Shown here piece after piece: positions 25,578 to 31,566 of a stretch of 31,686 nt of DNA. The position numbers and the translations under genes were made by a program. Below the pieces are notes generated by a model. It had not been told where the DNA came from and searched no databases. It was given only the letters and a program-made list of their open reading frames with translations. Within the stretch, counting starts at the first letter, position 1; each line of letters begins with the position of its first letter. Source of the stretch: a virus; IMG/VR virus record IMGVR_UViG_3300030380_003868, positions 1 through 31,686 of that record; one strand, given 5' to 3'.

Positions 25578-25593
25578 ATATGCGATAGTATAA
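25578..25593 (+). promoter_or_regulatory. Recurring phage promoter motif, copy 1 (ATATGCGATAGTATAA)
   Basis: ATATGCGATAGT reads as an extended -10 (TGC then GATAGT); GTATAA a few bases on is an alternative -10. TGTACA at 25561-25566 is a possible -35. The same ATATGCGA core precedes three other gene units to the right, each followed by an ACTTTGGG leader. Confidence 0.55.
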
Positions 25594-25595
25594 GA

Positions 25596-25660
25596 GTCGA
25601 AGGGGTTCTTTCGACCGCTAACCCCTAGCGGGTAGCGCTCTTTAACATCAACACTTTGGG
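25596..25660 (+). promoter_or_regulatory. Structured 5' leader with refolding hairpins and boxA
   Basis: Hairpin 1 is GTCGAA/TTCGAC (25596-25601 with 25610-25615); hairpin 2 is CCGCTA/TAGCGG (25615-25620 with 25626-25631), loop ACCCC. Loop 1 contains GGGGT, complementary to loop 2. An alternative 7-bp stem, AGGGGTT (25601-25607) with AACCCCT (25620-25626), excludes both. CGCTCTTTAACA (25636-25647) is a near-perfect rrn-type boxA, the NusB/NusE recognition element, placed after the hairpins as in rrn leaders. CACTTTGGGAGG (25652-25663) then supplies the ribosome site. Confidence 0.65.
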
Positions 25661-25668
25661 AGGTTCAC

Positions 25669-25890
25669 ATGCGTGAATCGCGTAAGCAGTACCCGCCGCA
25701 CACGCGGCAGGAGGTGGGTTGTAAAGTTAGCTGGCTCACTTTCGAAACCCGCAAGTTGGCCGAAGAAGCCGCTGTCGTTGCAAGACACAATGCAGAGATA
25801 GACTGGAGCTTAGGCTATGATTTTGGTTATCTATGCCCCGGCGACATAACCGAAAATGACGATGGCACCTTTACTGTCGTCACACCCTAA
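25669..25890 (+). CDS. Small protein behind the boxA leader, unknown
   Basis: A 73-residue protein with a very strong Shine-Dalgarno (GGGAGG). The basic N-terminus (MRESRKQYPPHTRQEVG) is followed by KVSWLTFETRKLAEEAAVVARHNAEIDWSLGYDFGYLCPGDITENDDGTFTVVTP: strand, helix with the 'LAEEAAVVARHNA' phrase, then two strands, a compact alpha/beta fold. No named family. It is monocistronic, between a dedicated promoter/leader and a terminator, and so is probably highly or specially expressed. Confidence 0.7.
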   Translation: MRESRKQYPPHTRQEVGCKVSWLTFETRKLAEEAAVVARHNAEIDWSLGYDFGYLCPGDITENDDGTFTVVTP

Positions 25891-25896
25891 ACAACC

Positions 25897-25918
25897 GCCC
25901 CCGAAAGGGGGCTTTTTT
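25897..25918 (+). terminator. Intrinsic terminator
   Basis: GCCCCC-GAAA-GGGGGC, a 6-bp GC stem with a GNRA (GAAA) loop, followed by six T. It ends the boxA-leader gene 7 nt after its stop codon. Confidence 0.92.
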
Positions 25919-25929
25919 GGAGATCTAGG

Positions 25930-25979
25930 CACGGCTCATTGAGCGTTACTCCACGCGCGTCATCTGTCAATGAACCGTG
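25930..25979. repeat. Long imperfect inverted repeat in leader of next operon
   Basis: CACGGCTCATTGA (25930-25942) pairs with TCAATGAACCGTG (25967-25979): 12 of 13 positions, one C/A mismatch. The 24-nt loop contains the palindrome ACGCGCGT. There is no T-run after it, so it is not an intrinsic terminator. It could be an operator, a leader RNA structure or a small RNA. Confidence 0.6.
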
Positions 25980-26046
25980 TAGGCCAATCGGTTGGCAACA
26001 CCCCGAAAGATACAATTGTTGCTCTAACTAAACACAGGAGAAAGCT

Positions 26047-26235
26047 ATGACCTACAGAGACAACGCTTACATCCTCAGTAAGCTCAAAGAACGCTACCCC
26101 GACTACTACCACCAAGCCTCCATCAAGTTTGAAAACTTCGAATACTCCGATGACGAAGACCGTATTACTGATATGATCGACCACATCGTCAACGCTCATT
26201 CCATCGACCACCCACTTATGGAGAAACCACGATGA
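26047..26235 (+). CDS. Small acidic protein, unknown
   Basis: A 62-residue protein with ribosome site AGGAGAAAG. It is rich in Tyr, Asp and His (MTYRDNAYILSKLKERYPDYYHQASIKFENFEYSDDEDRITDMIDHIVNAH) and mostly helical by composition. It overlaps the next gene by 4 nt (ATGA). No family was recognised; strong acidity is compatible with a DNA-mimic or inhibitor, but that is speculation. Confidence 0.65.
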   Translation: MTYRDNAYILSKLKERYPDYYHQASIKFENFEYSDDEDRITDMIDHIVNAHSIDHPLMEKPR

Positions 26236-29585: not shown

Positions 29586-29597
29586 GAGGGAACTATC

Positions 29598-30728
29598 ATG
29601 CATAGCATTGAAAACGGAACCAACACTCTGCAAAACCTTTTGTTAAAGGTGCAGGATCAAGCCACACGGGCGCAGGATTTTCTTGCGCCTACCAATCAAC
29701 TCCAATTGATGACTGGCGATCGTGGGGACGGTACAAACGTCTCGCAAGTAGTTATTGAGCAGTCGGGCGGAATGCCTACACAAATTCTGTCCGCTAACGA
29801 GGTTGCTTTTGATCAGATAGCCCAGCGGGCTAGTATTGATGTCCGCACCGCCCGTCGGTTACAGCAGGATTACGCTGGCGAATTCGACGCGTTAATCAAC
29901 GCCATCTGGCAAAAAGAACCCGCTGTTCGAATGCTCCGCACGTTTAACACTGGCGACAATGTTGGCATTGCCCGTGCGTTTGTATCGGATAAATTTAAAA
30001 CGTTCGATAACGTGCACCTGTTGCAATCCGCATTGCCTCAGTTAATGGAATCGGATGCTCAGTGGAAAGTGGTTAACGGCGAGGTGACAGATAAGCGCTT
30101 ATACCTTCGTTTAAAATCTGAAAACCAAACCGGTGAAGGTGCCGCAGTCGGGGATGTTATGGCAAACGGTATCGGCCTCAGTAACTCTGAAACCGGTTGC
30201 GGGAGTGTCAACGTCTATCAGATGTTCTGGACACTGGCATGCCTCAACGGTATGCAGACTGAAAAGCGCACTCGCAAGTCTCACATCACCGGCGCACGGG
30301 GTGACTCTGATACGTGGGGACTTTTGACCGACGAAGCGAAGGATGCTGATAATCATGCGCTGGCGTTGCAGTTGCGGGATGTCACTGCGGCATATGCTAG
30401 CCGTGAATCCTTCGATGAAATACTCGAAAAAATGAAGGCCGCGCACGCGGACACTATTTCGGGTTCCGTTAACGCGGCAGTCGAGTCACTGGGCAAGGTT
30501 TTGACCTTATCCAAAAAAGACACGGCGAGCGTATTGGATGGCCTACTTGCTACCGTCGGTCAGTCGGGTTTCGCCGGTCAACCGGTCACCCGCGCGACTA
30601 TGGTTAACGCGGTAACAGCGGTCGCGCACAAAGCGGACGCGGACAGCGTTGACGATTGGCAGAGACTAGGCGGGCGCGTTTTAGATCTGCCCCGCTCCGA
30701 TTGGCAACGCGTTGCGATGGCGGCATAA
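29598..30728 (+). CDS. DUF932 family phage/plasmid protein
   Basis: A 376-residue protein with ribosome site GAGGGA. It fits the DUF932 ('phage/plasmid-like') family: SANEVAFDQIAQRASIDVRTARRLQQDY (residues ~66-93), NVGIARAFVSDKFKTFDNVHLLQSALP (~121-147), then LYLRLKS and GDVMANGIGLSNSETGCGSVNVYQMFWTLACLNGM (~187-222), a highly typical core phrase. The family is common on phages and plasmids, often beside anti-restriction or recombination genes; its biochemistry is not established. It has no signal or membrane segment, and a strong terminator follows. Confidence 0.85.
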   Translation: MHSIENGTNTLQNLLLKVQDQATRAQDFLAPTNQLQLMTGDRGDGTNVSQVVIEQSGGMPTQILSANEVAFDQIAQRASIDVRTARRLQQDYAGEFDALINAIWQKEPAVRMLRTFNTGDNVGIARAFVSDKFKTFDNVHLLQSALPQLMESDAQWKVVNGEVTDKRLYLRLKSENQTGEGAAVGDVMANGIGLSNSETGCGSVNVYQMFWTLACLNGMQTEKRTRKSHITGARGDSDTWGLLTDEAKDADNHALALQLRDVTAAYASRESFDEILEKMKAAHADTISGSVNAAVESLGKVLTLSKKDTASVLDGLLATVGQSGFAGQPVTRATMVNAVTAVAHKADADSVDDWQRLGGRVLDLPRSDWQRVAMAA

Positions 30729-30747
30729 CTGAACACCCCCAAAGTGT

Positions 30748-30767
30748 ACCCCGCCGGGGTTTTTTTT
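30748..30767 (+). terminator. Intrinsic terminator preceded by CCCAAAGTGTA
   Basis: ACCCC-GCC-GGGGT, a 5-bp stem with 3-nt loop, followed by a run of eight T. CCCAAAGTGTA (30738-30748) lies directly at its foot and is complementary to the TACACTTTGGG-type leaders. Confidence 0.85.
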
Positions 30768-30774
30768 GCCTGCA

Positions 30775-30811
30775 ATATGCGATAGTCTGCGACGGTGATC
30801 ACTTTGGGAGG
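30775..30811 (+). promoter_or_regulatory. Recurring promoter motif copy 3 with CACTTTGGGAGG leader
   Basis: ATATGCGATAGT (30775-30786) has an extended -10 (TGC-GATAGT, 4/6 to TATAAT), begins 8 nt after the T-run of the upstream terminator, and has no clear -35. CACTTTGGGAGG (30800-30811) follows and supplies the ribosome site. The leader is only about 25-35 nt. Confidence 0.55.
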
Positions 30812-30818
30812 TTTCACA

Positions 30819-31499
30819 ATGTTTTTTCAGTTCATTAAAAAAAGCAGTAACGCTAAAACCGGAGCGATACCGGTAACGAATAGTTCGCGGGATACTTGCC
30901 CGCCAGCCTGCCCGCTAAAAGGTAACGCGGGTTGCTATGATGAAGCGCTTTTCTGGACCCGTCTTAATTGGGATAAAGTCGACAGCGGAGAGCGCGGCGC
31001 GTCATGGTCTCATTTACTTGATCAGATCCGCGCCTTACCCGACGGCCAATTGTGGCGGCATAACGTCGCTGGGGATTTACCGCCATCCGGCGACAATCAA
31101 ATTCACGTTTCTAAATTGCTTCAATTAGTCGAAGCTAACAGCGGGCGTAAAGGGTTTACGTATACCCATTACCCTATGACAATGATTAACGAGGGCTTAG
31201 TGAACATGGCGAATCGGCGCGGGTTTACTATTAACGCGAGCGCGGACACTGAAAAACAAGCGGTTAAGCTATACCGGCGCGAGTTGCCTACTGTCGCACT
31301 GGTAGCCGCAAACAAGCGTGGCAAAGACTGGCGCAAGTTTAGGCGCGACAGCGTCCAGTTCGTGAGGTGTCCCGCTGAATATCTCGACACGGACTGCAAA
31401 GCTTGCCAGCTATGCCAGCGCTCCAATCGTCGGTGCGTCGTGGGATTTACCCCGCACGGGTCCAATAAAAACAGCGCGGAAATTATAGCTTCTAATTAA
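30819..31499 (+). CDS. Cysteine-rich phage protein (DUF7227-like), possible metal binding
   Basis: A 226-residue protein starting at ATG 30819 after GGGAGG; a GTG at 30795 would overlap the leader. The N-terminus KSSNAKTGAIPVTNSSRDTCPPACPLKGNAGCY has Cys27, Cys31 and Cys39. A C-terminal cluster CPAEYLDTDCKACQLCQRSNRRC supplies Cys184, Cys193, Cys196, Cys199 and Cys206, followed by VGFTPHG. The 'SNAKTGPIPV..TCP.CPLK..GCY' start is, from memory, the signature of a phage/plasmid DUF7227-type family. Eight cysteines in two clusters suggest Zn or Fe-S binding. Function unknown; like the DUF932 protein it is typical of mobile elements. Confidence 0.7.
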   Translation: MFFQFIKKSSNAKTGAIPVTNSSRDTCPPACPLKGNAGCYDEALFWTRLNWDKVDSGERGASWSHLLDQIRALPDGQLWRHNVAGDLPPSGDNQIHVSKLLQLVEANSGRKGFTYTHYPMTMINEGLVNMANRRGFTINASADTEKQAVKLYRRELPTVALVAANKRGKDWRKFRRDSVQFVRCPAEYLDTDCKACQLCQRSNRRCVVGFTPHGSNKNSAEIIASN

Positions 31500-31511
31500 A
31501 GGGCTTTTTTT
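31484..31511 (+). terminator. Possible weak terminator
   Basis: AGCTT...GGGCT (about 31484-31502, five pairs including two G-T) is followed by a run of eight T. The stem is weak, but the T-run and position just after the stop codon match the pattern at the other unit ends. Confidence 0.4.
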
Positions 31512-31514
31512 TCA

Positions 31515-31566
31515 ATCGCATATATGCGATAAAGGGCGGGCGGTAATGTCGCCGCGACACTTTGGG
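31515..31566 (+). promoter_or_regulatory. Recurring promoter motif copy 4 within a 16-bp palindrome, with CACTTTGGG leader
   Basis: ATCGCATATATGCGAT (31515-31530) is a perfect palindrome containing the ATATGCGATA core (31522-31531; extended -10 TGC-GATAAA). GTCGC-C-GCGAC (31548-31558) is a second interrupted palindrome, overlapping the start of CACTTTGGG (31558-31566). This leader lacks the AGG of the others and runs into GAATTAAAAAA before the ATG. Confidence 0.5.

Follow-up and report, generated by a model that had tools for sequence, protein, structure and literature searches.

A candidate phage-encoded antisense RNA complementary to the shared ribosome-binding leader of recurrent promoter cassettes

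The best-known antisense RNAs of phages, namely c4, sar, and OOP, each act on a single gene or operon and mostly in lysogeny. The c4 RNA of P1/P7 has a loop-borne complement that binds round the ribosome-binding site and blocks translation (Citron and Schuster, 1990, as described in PMC12197685), with function dependent on the secondary structure of the RNA. The alpha-r14/NfeR1 ('cuckoo') small RNAs (sRNAs) of alphaproteobacteria display a conserved anti-Shine-Dalgarno sequence in the unpaired loops of divergent stems and target many mRNAs at the translation start (PMC10746234). T4-like phages carry PeSLs, viz., repeated promoter-terminator cassettes between small variable genes, which are associated with the shuffling of gene modules (Arbiol, 2010; Comeau, 2014; cited in PMC4503421). 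The ompA mRNA bears a stabilizing stem-loop at its 5' terminus (Emory, Bouvet and Belasco, 1992, as cited in PMC3997798). Here we describe elements recalling each of these from the IMG/VR virus record IMGVR_UViG_3300030380_003868 (31,686 bases, classed linear, probably a genome fragment; its full length is hereafter the window): a promoter-leader cassette repeated before several genes, and a candidate antisense RNA, element I, whose loop is complementary to the leader of those cassettes.

Using the DUF932-like protein of the window (29598-30725) as a query, we obtained 80 related viral loci (designated by L numbers), several of them belonging to 48-58-kb records whose whole sequence was read. 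Comparison of these shows the anatomy of the cassette: the unit noted in a preliminary description of the window recurs in them as 101 distinct cassettes, with the order promoter, covarying 5' hairpin, and leader ACTTTGGGAG. The promoter is of the sigma70 extended -10 type (TATGCGATA), with TATGC before GATANT, agreeing with the pattern of TRTGN plus a TATAAT-like -10 and a TTGACA-like -35 at about 17 nt; G as the first -10 base is unusual for sigma70. A terminator-free class has a TTGAC-like -35 exactly 17 nt upstream of GATANT, and in a terminator-fused class (54 of the 101 distinct cassettes) the T-run of the terminator occupies the -35 position. The segment between the promoter and the Shine-Dalgarno sequence, which the preliminary description had passed over, is a hairpin with 92.0% of cells paired against 80.2% when shuffled, and with a covariation of 0.371 against 0.197 (0/500 shuffles), slid versions reaching at most 0.249. 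When the predicted transcript was folded, the first paired base fell 6-9 nt past the -10, near the expected start, in 87 of 90 cassettes, the value of 6 being the lower limit by construction as folding began there. Lying ahead of the ribosome site, and at the predicted 5' end of the mRNA or close to it, this stem-loop is reminiscent of that of ompA, and a comparable role in mRNA decay may be suggested by analogy. We also considered the leader palindrome as a DNA operator, a reading disfavored because its arms change in a compensatory manner (GCGGC/GCCGC, GCCGC/GCGGC, GTTCC/GGAAC), with only AAT kept in the loop.

Sites picked without requiring ACTTTGGGA nearly always have the hairpin plus a leader of the CTTTGG(G)AG type, provided that they have the promoter context; TATGCGA sites of the relatives lying outside cassettes are mostly devoid of promoter context or on the opposite strand. 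The joint pattern reaches up to seven copies per viral contig. Bacterial and archaeal genomes totaling 257 Gb yield a single match per stretch, at near the chance rate; of the 85 bacterial stretches with one match each, those listed are devoid of the cassette context, as expected by chance, and the pattern there was set aside. Most genes that follow a cassette bear no relation to one another; many are small, and whole modules and their order differ between phages. In six gene-cluster pairs an identical cassette precedes non-homologous genes, and recombination at the cassettes is therefore likely. Thus, as in PeSLs, a sigma70-like promoter joined to a terminator is present in many copies at which genes are shuffled. 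However, the cassettes additionally have the covarying 5' hairpin, the constant ribosome-binding leader, and a matching candidate antisense RNA, and their bearers are uncultivated phages related to podovirus-type phages rather than being T4-like.

The candidate antisense RNA emerged from a search for leader-like sequences lacking a promoter, in which the reverse complement of the leader was found to recur on the gene strand just before terminators. Element I follows the DNA-polymerase operon and precedes the first cassette, about 0.9-1.1 kb 3' of the DNA polymerase gene, and is predicted to fold into an outer stem, an inner stem carrying the loop CTCCCAAAGT, and a terminator. In the window it spans 25379..25461 on the plus strand, which also carries the leaders, cassettes, and element II described below, with the outer stem formed by GGGTTC (25379-25384) and GAACCC (25428-25433), the inner stem by AAATAC (25389-25394) and GTATTT (25406-25411), and the terminator at 25434-25461. 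The seed loop TTCCCAAAGT (25396..25405), with UUCCCAAAGU in the window and CUCCCAAAGU in most relatives as the part complementary to the shared leader, is the reverse complement of the leader ACTTTGGGAA and pairs ACTTTGGGAG with one G-U. Comparison shows the structure of this RNA element: the outer stem is 94.4% paired, with a covariation of 0.355 against 0.130 shuffled (0/500), slid versions not exceeding 0.095. When the set was widened to 35 distinct sequences, 86.3% were paired, with a covariation of 0.358 against 0.125 (0/500); this set tests the stems only, since the loop served to select its loci and the structure guided its alignment. In a long automatic alignment with 100-nt flanks RNAalifold recovered only a weak terminator stem, and trimming to element I resolved the outer stem. 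A covariance model matches the window element with 64.8 bits (E 3.6e-13), a near-identical copy (L059) being in its training set, and outside that set matches L007, L002, and the near-copies L009 and L159 with E of about 1e-7. The loop-plus-terminator pattern gives 89 matches in viral contigs versus 4 with a scrambled loop. Rfam returned no match at the gathering score in the window and none near the cut-off for 25300-25700; weak matches to OmrA-B and Leu_leader fell far under their cut-offs and were judged to be chance. The alternative that the minus-strand ACTTTGGG copies represent cassettes of leftward genes was rejected: reading frames on the opposite strand are absent or tiny (0-51 aa, mostly 0-11), and element I is therefore not a leftward ribosome site.

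The seed loop can pair with 10 nt of the leader, among them the ACUUU upstream of the Shine-Dalgarno sequence, so that, as in c4, a loop complements the ribosome-binding site of a phage gene. When predicted duplexes were ranked among all gene starts, cassette genes came out on top in most of 12 records, and the three best-ranked of the 33 gene starts of the window are cassette genes; since the motif is common to the leaders, part of this ranking follows from the design, and it points to specificity within the genome rather than to function. With the structures of both molecules counted, net pairing with the four window leaders is predicted at -9.7 to -11.6 kcal/mol, energies matched by 0, 5, 0, and 0 of 200 shuffled seeds. 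Beyond this exact complementarity, the comparison shows one correlated change of loop and leader. In a clade with the loop CTCCAAAG, 15 of 15 leaders in four genomes are of the CTTTGGAG type, whereas CTTTGGG is found in about 68 of the 69 leaders of genomes having the longer loop; in the DUF932 tree the short-loop clade is nested among long-loop relatives, and the change is therefore derived and occurred once. The corresponding sequence changed likewise in element II, a second complementary element in the 3' UTR of the DUF932-like gene (30733..30768 in the window), where CCCAAAGTGT (30738-30747) sits in a small hairpin followed by a terminator.

Taken together, these sequence comparisons lead us to propose, as the probable explanation, that the dispersed genes form one regulon whose ribosome sites are blocked by an antisense RNA of the phage. 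The preliminary description had envisaged one regulon read by the same factor; the cassette family stands, but the best candidate for the shared factor is this phage-encoded RNA. As we picture it, the cassettes would be reusable expression units, probably read by the host sigma70-type RNA polymerase via the extended -10. Their transcripts would start at, or a few nucleotides from, the GC-rich hairpin, which probably shields the 5' end against decay, and run on into the nearly invariant ribosome-binding leader ACUUUGGGAG, proposed to be kept constant because it is the common target of the antisense RNA. Element I would be a free RNA, either derived from the 3' UTR of the replication operon or transcribed from a weak promoter of its own; it would end at its intrinsic terminator and show CUCCCAAAGU or UUCCCAAAGU in its loop. 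Pairing would then cover the Shine-Dalgarno sequence of the cassette genes and block translation of the dispersed set once the replication operon is expressed; as the loop is the exact complement of the shared ribosome site, one RNA could switch off all cassette genes. The most complete form of the proposal, which we hold with less assurance though still as somewhat better than even, is that in an apparently lytic lineage one sRNA, made where the replication operon ends, represses in trans every gene behind a mobile cassette, its seed coevolving with the leader.

Element I, in its predicted role, resembles c4 in being a phage-encoded RNA with its complement in a loop or loops. However, c4 serves one antirepressor operon in phage immunity, whereas element I would reach several dispersed genes through a shared leader. 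Moreover, unlike c4, it lacks an Rfam family match and belongs to phages for which a search of eight records, not all of them complete, turned up no integrase family, making a role in lysogeny less likely. The alpha-r14/NfeR1 sRNAs differ in having three hairpins with CCUCCUCCC and host mRNAs as targets (PMC10746234), whereas the loop of element I reaches the ACUUU of a specific shared leader and is encoded in a phage genome. By these analogies, what would be new relative to both is an RNA of no Rfam family that serves a shared mobile leader.

Several observations weigh against the proposed antisense regulon. An own promoter for element I is plausible, with a candidate having 8-10 of 12 matches that may reflect coding constraint, but it is uncertain because the best candidate overlaps coding sequence in several relatives. 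The cassette at 30775 has no strong hairpin, unlike ompA; L007, L009, and L139 combine the loop TTCCAAAG with leaders CTTTGGGA, leaving a one-base mismatch; and the joint change of loop and leader is one event in the tree, not many. Element I is also itself upstream of a cassette and may thus have an effect in cis. An arrangement acting in cis only would have the CCCAAAG in transcripts reading through the terminator pair with the CTTTGGG of the next cassette and hide its ribosome site, so that only transcripts from the own promoter are translated. It fits the placement of the two elements, element I ahead of the head cassette and element II ahead of the one that follows the DUF932-like gene, in both cases with an intervening terminator. 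We nevertheless consider it unlikely: in the lists made, complementary elements precede these two positions only and not other terminator-fused cassettes, and the conserved two-stem architecture of element I is needless for cis pairing. Further, the element of L021 is predicted to pair less strongly with the head leader next to it (-14.9) than with cassettes farther away (-19.1 to -22.5), and the better fit of the latter favors trans action over pure cis insulation.

If recognition of TATGCGATA by a transcription factor of the phage, or by a host polymerase altered for it, instead defined the regulon, this would account for a motif more uniform than sigma70 requires (though part of that uniformity stems from site selection), with G as the first -10 base and a varying last base (GATAGT, GATAAA, GATACC), and for its persistence beside terminators in distant relatives devoid of the hairpin and leader. 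Yet cassettes of the terminator-free class carry the sigma70 signature of a TTGAC-like -35 spaced by exactly 17 nt, and no such reader was found: no sigma region-4 domain was detected in seven phage records, and there is no RNA polymerase among eight large proteins of G001, a 57.8-kb relative. A genome-wide search for RNA polymerase families also found none, but as its control was silent it carries little weight; on balance, we regard such a factor as rather improbable. Without any RNA regulator, the cassettes could have been kept alike by recombination, for which their identical copies before non-homologous genes speak, with the reverse-complement copies being remnants of inverted cassettes or DNA-binding sites. 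This appears quite improbable given that the stems of element I vary in a compensatory fashion round a constant loop, the terminator is always 3' of the element, neither a promoter motif nor a reading frame that would suit an inverted cassette is present on the opposite strand, and the loop and leaders changed jointly.

In the window, the preliminary description had recorded ATATGCGA at 25578, 29179, 30775, and 31522. All four plus-strand copies are there and are intergenic, and thus the motif is not equally frequent within genes; each lies 25-74 nt upstream of (C)ACTTTGGGA and then a start codon, as described, the spacing to (C)ACTTTGGG being 74, 36, 25, and 36 nt. A further match, on the minus strand at 31516, belongs to the palindrome TCGCATATATGCGA as its second half and brings the total to 5 against 0.88 expected (0/100 shuffles reach 5). 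If one mismatch is allowed, ACTTTGGGAG is found 9 times where 1.75 matches would be expected (0/100 shuffles reaching that count). The modular terminator-promoter-leader-gene arrangement, read as extended -10 promoters, is upheld; of the supposed promoter/leader cassette, the promoter part holds, while ACTTTGGGAGG is a ribosome-binding site outside the promoter. The statement that at least three copies sit directly behind a terminator is clearly true of 30775 alone, which adjoins a clear terminator (30748-30768): the 31522 copy follows a weak one (-1.6 kcal/mol), the 29179 copy lies about 42 nt past the terminator 29114-29136, and the 25578 copy about 115 nt past that of element I.

The head cassette has the extended -10 ATATGCGATAGT at 25578..25589, with a -35-like TGTACA at 25561-25566, and its leader (25596..25647) comprises two adjacent hairpins and then GCTCTTTAACA (25637-25647), followed by the shared leader ACTTTGGGAGG as the ribosome-binding site (25653..25663) of the gene 25669-25890. 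The boxA antitermination leaders of rrn operons offer a comparison, in that the hairpins of the head leader and then the boxA-like GCTCTTTAACA lie ahead of downstream terminators; TCTTTAACA is constant in six related leaders. This suggests, as a lead only, antitermination of a long transcript. Related leaders occur in L022, L037, and L116, and a similar long leader with a boxA precedes another ACTTTGGGAG gene in other lineages. The variant leader of the preliminary description, CACTTTAGGAGG at 28426, is confirmed: here a hairpin, GTATGGG/CCCATAC, precedes it (28407..28437) and the gene 28444-28722 follows, ATATGCGA (TATGCGA) is missing, and the predicted pairing with element I is weak. The next cassette (29162..29225) has the -35 TTGCAC (29162-29167), ATATGCGACTAT (29179-29190), a hairpin of GTCGC (29198-29202) with GCGGC (29208-29212), and the leader ACTTTGGGAG (29216-29225), with the genes 29232-29585 and 29598-30728 behind it. 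The terminator-fused cassette (30775..30811), with ATATGCGATAGT (30775-30786) and the leader ACTTTGGGAGG (30801-30811), precedes a DUF7227 gene (30819-31499) that has about 43% identical homologs in Pakpunavirus, other Pseudomonas phages, and cyanophages. The last one (31522..31568) consists of ATATGCGATAAA (31522-31533), the hairpin GCGGTAATGTCGCCGC, and the leader ACTTTGGGAA (31559-31568), before an open reading frame that runs from 31578 past the contig end. Its -10 region forms the perfect palindrome TCGCATATATGCGA (31516-31529), and TATCGCATATGCGATA-like palindromes recur in relatives.

Just past element I, at 25465-25480, is the exact palindrome TGTTCCACGTGGAACA, also present at L016:4143, L022:3892, L045:4571, and elsewhere, in some cases within cassette leaders; it occurs at several places per phage group, with 0 pattern copies in 587 kb of control loci. 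We take it to resemble a chromosomal parS site; no ParB domain was found in seven records. The intergenic segment 26965-27055, upstream of the terminase small subunit gene, holds repeated and inverted GTAACCG/GGTTAC-type units and could be a packaging or replication site. A copy of CCCAAAGTG at about 22484 was set aside as coding (CPKCG codons). In L003, near 5924, a TATGCGATAAATCC site lies between two DnaA-box-like TGTGGATAAC sequences, a possible origin. Among isolates and named records the closest DNA polymerases are those of phage DSL-LC04 (56%) and pelagiphage HTVC023P (52%), with a similar gene order; no record of the phage collection shares the DNA, no isolated phage with similar DNA was found, and the cassette was not present in the stretches of DSL-LC04 and HTVC023P that were read. 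In HTVC023P (L256, 13050-16165) several small genes share a different leader, approximately AACTAACAAAGnAG, before the start codon, possibly an analogous regulon. In distant relatives (L073:3360, 5297; L075:485, 2907, 3744; L077; L080) a terminator adjoins TATGCGATAA before genes, there without the hairpin, the ACTTTGGGAG leader, or a convincing element I.

If the proposed antisense regulon is real, a gene captured behind a cassette would join it automatically, and the phages would possess a self-made RNA regulon with many targets, its control being carried along by a mobile module of promoter and ribosome site. Such a regulon would account for the conservation of the leader ACUUUGGGAG well beyond the Shine-Dalgarno sequence and, through the coupling to the replication operon, would offer a simple means of timing the shut-off of accessory genes.

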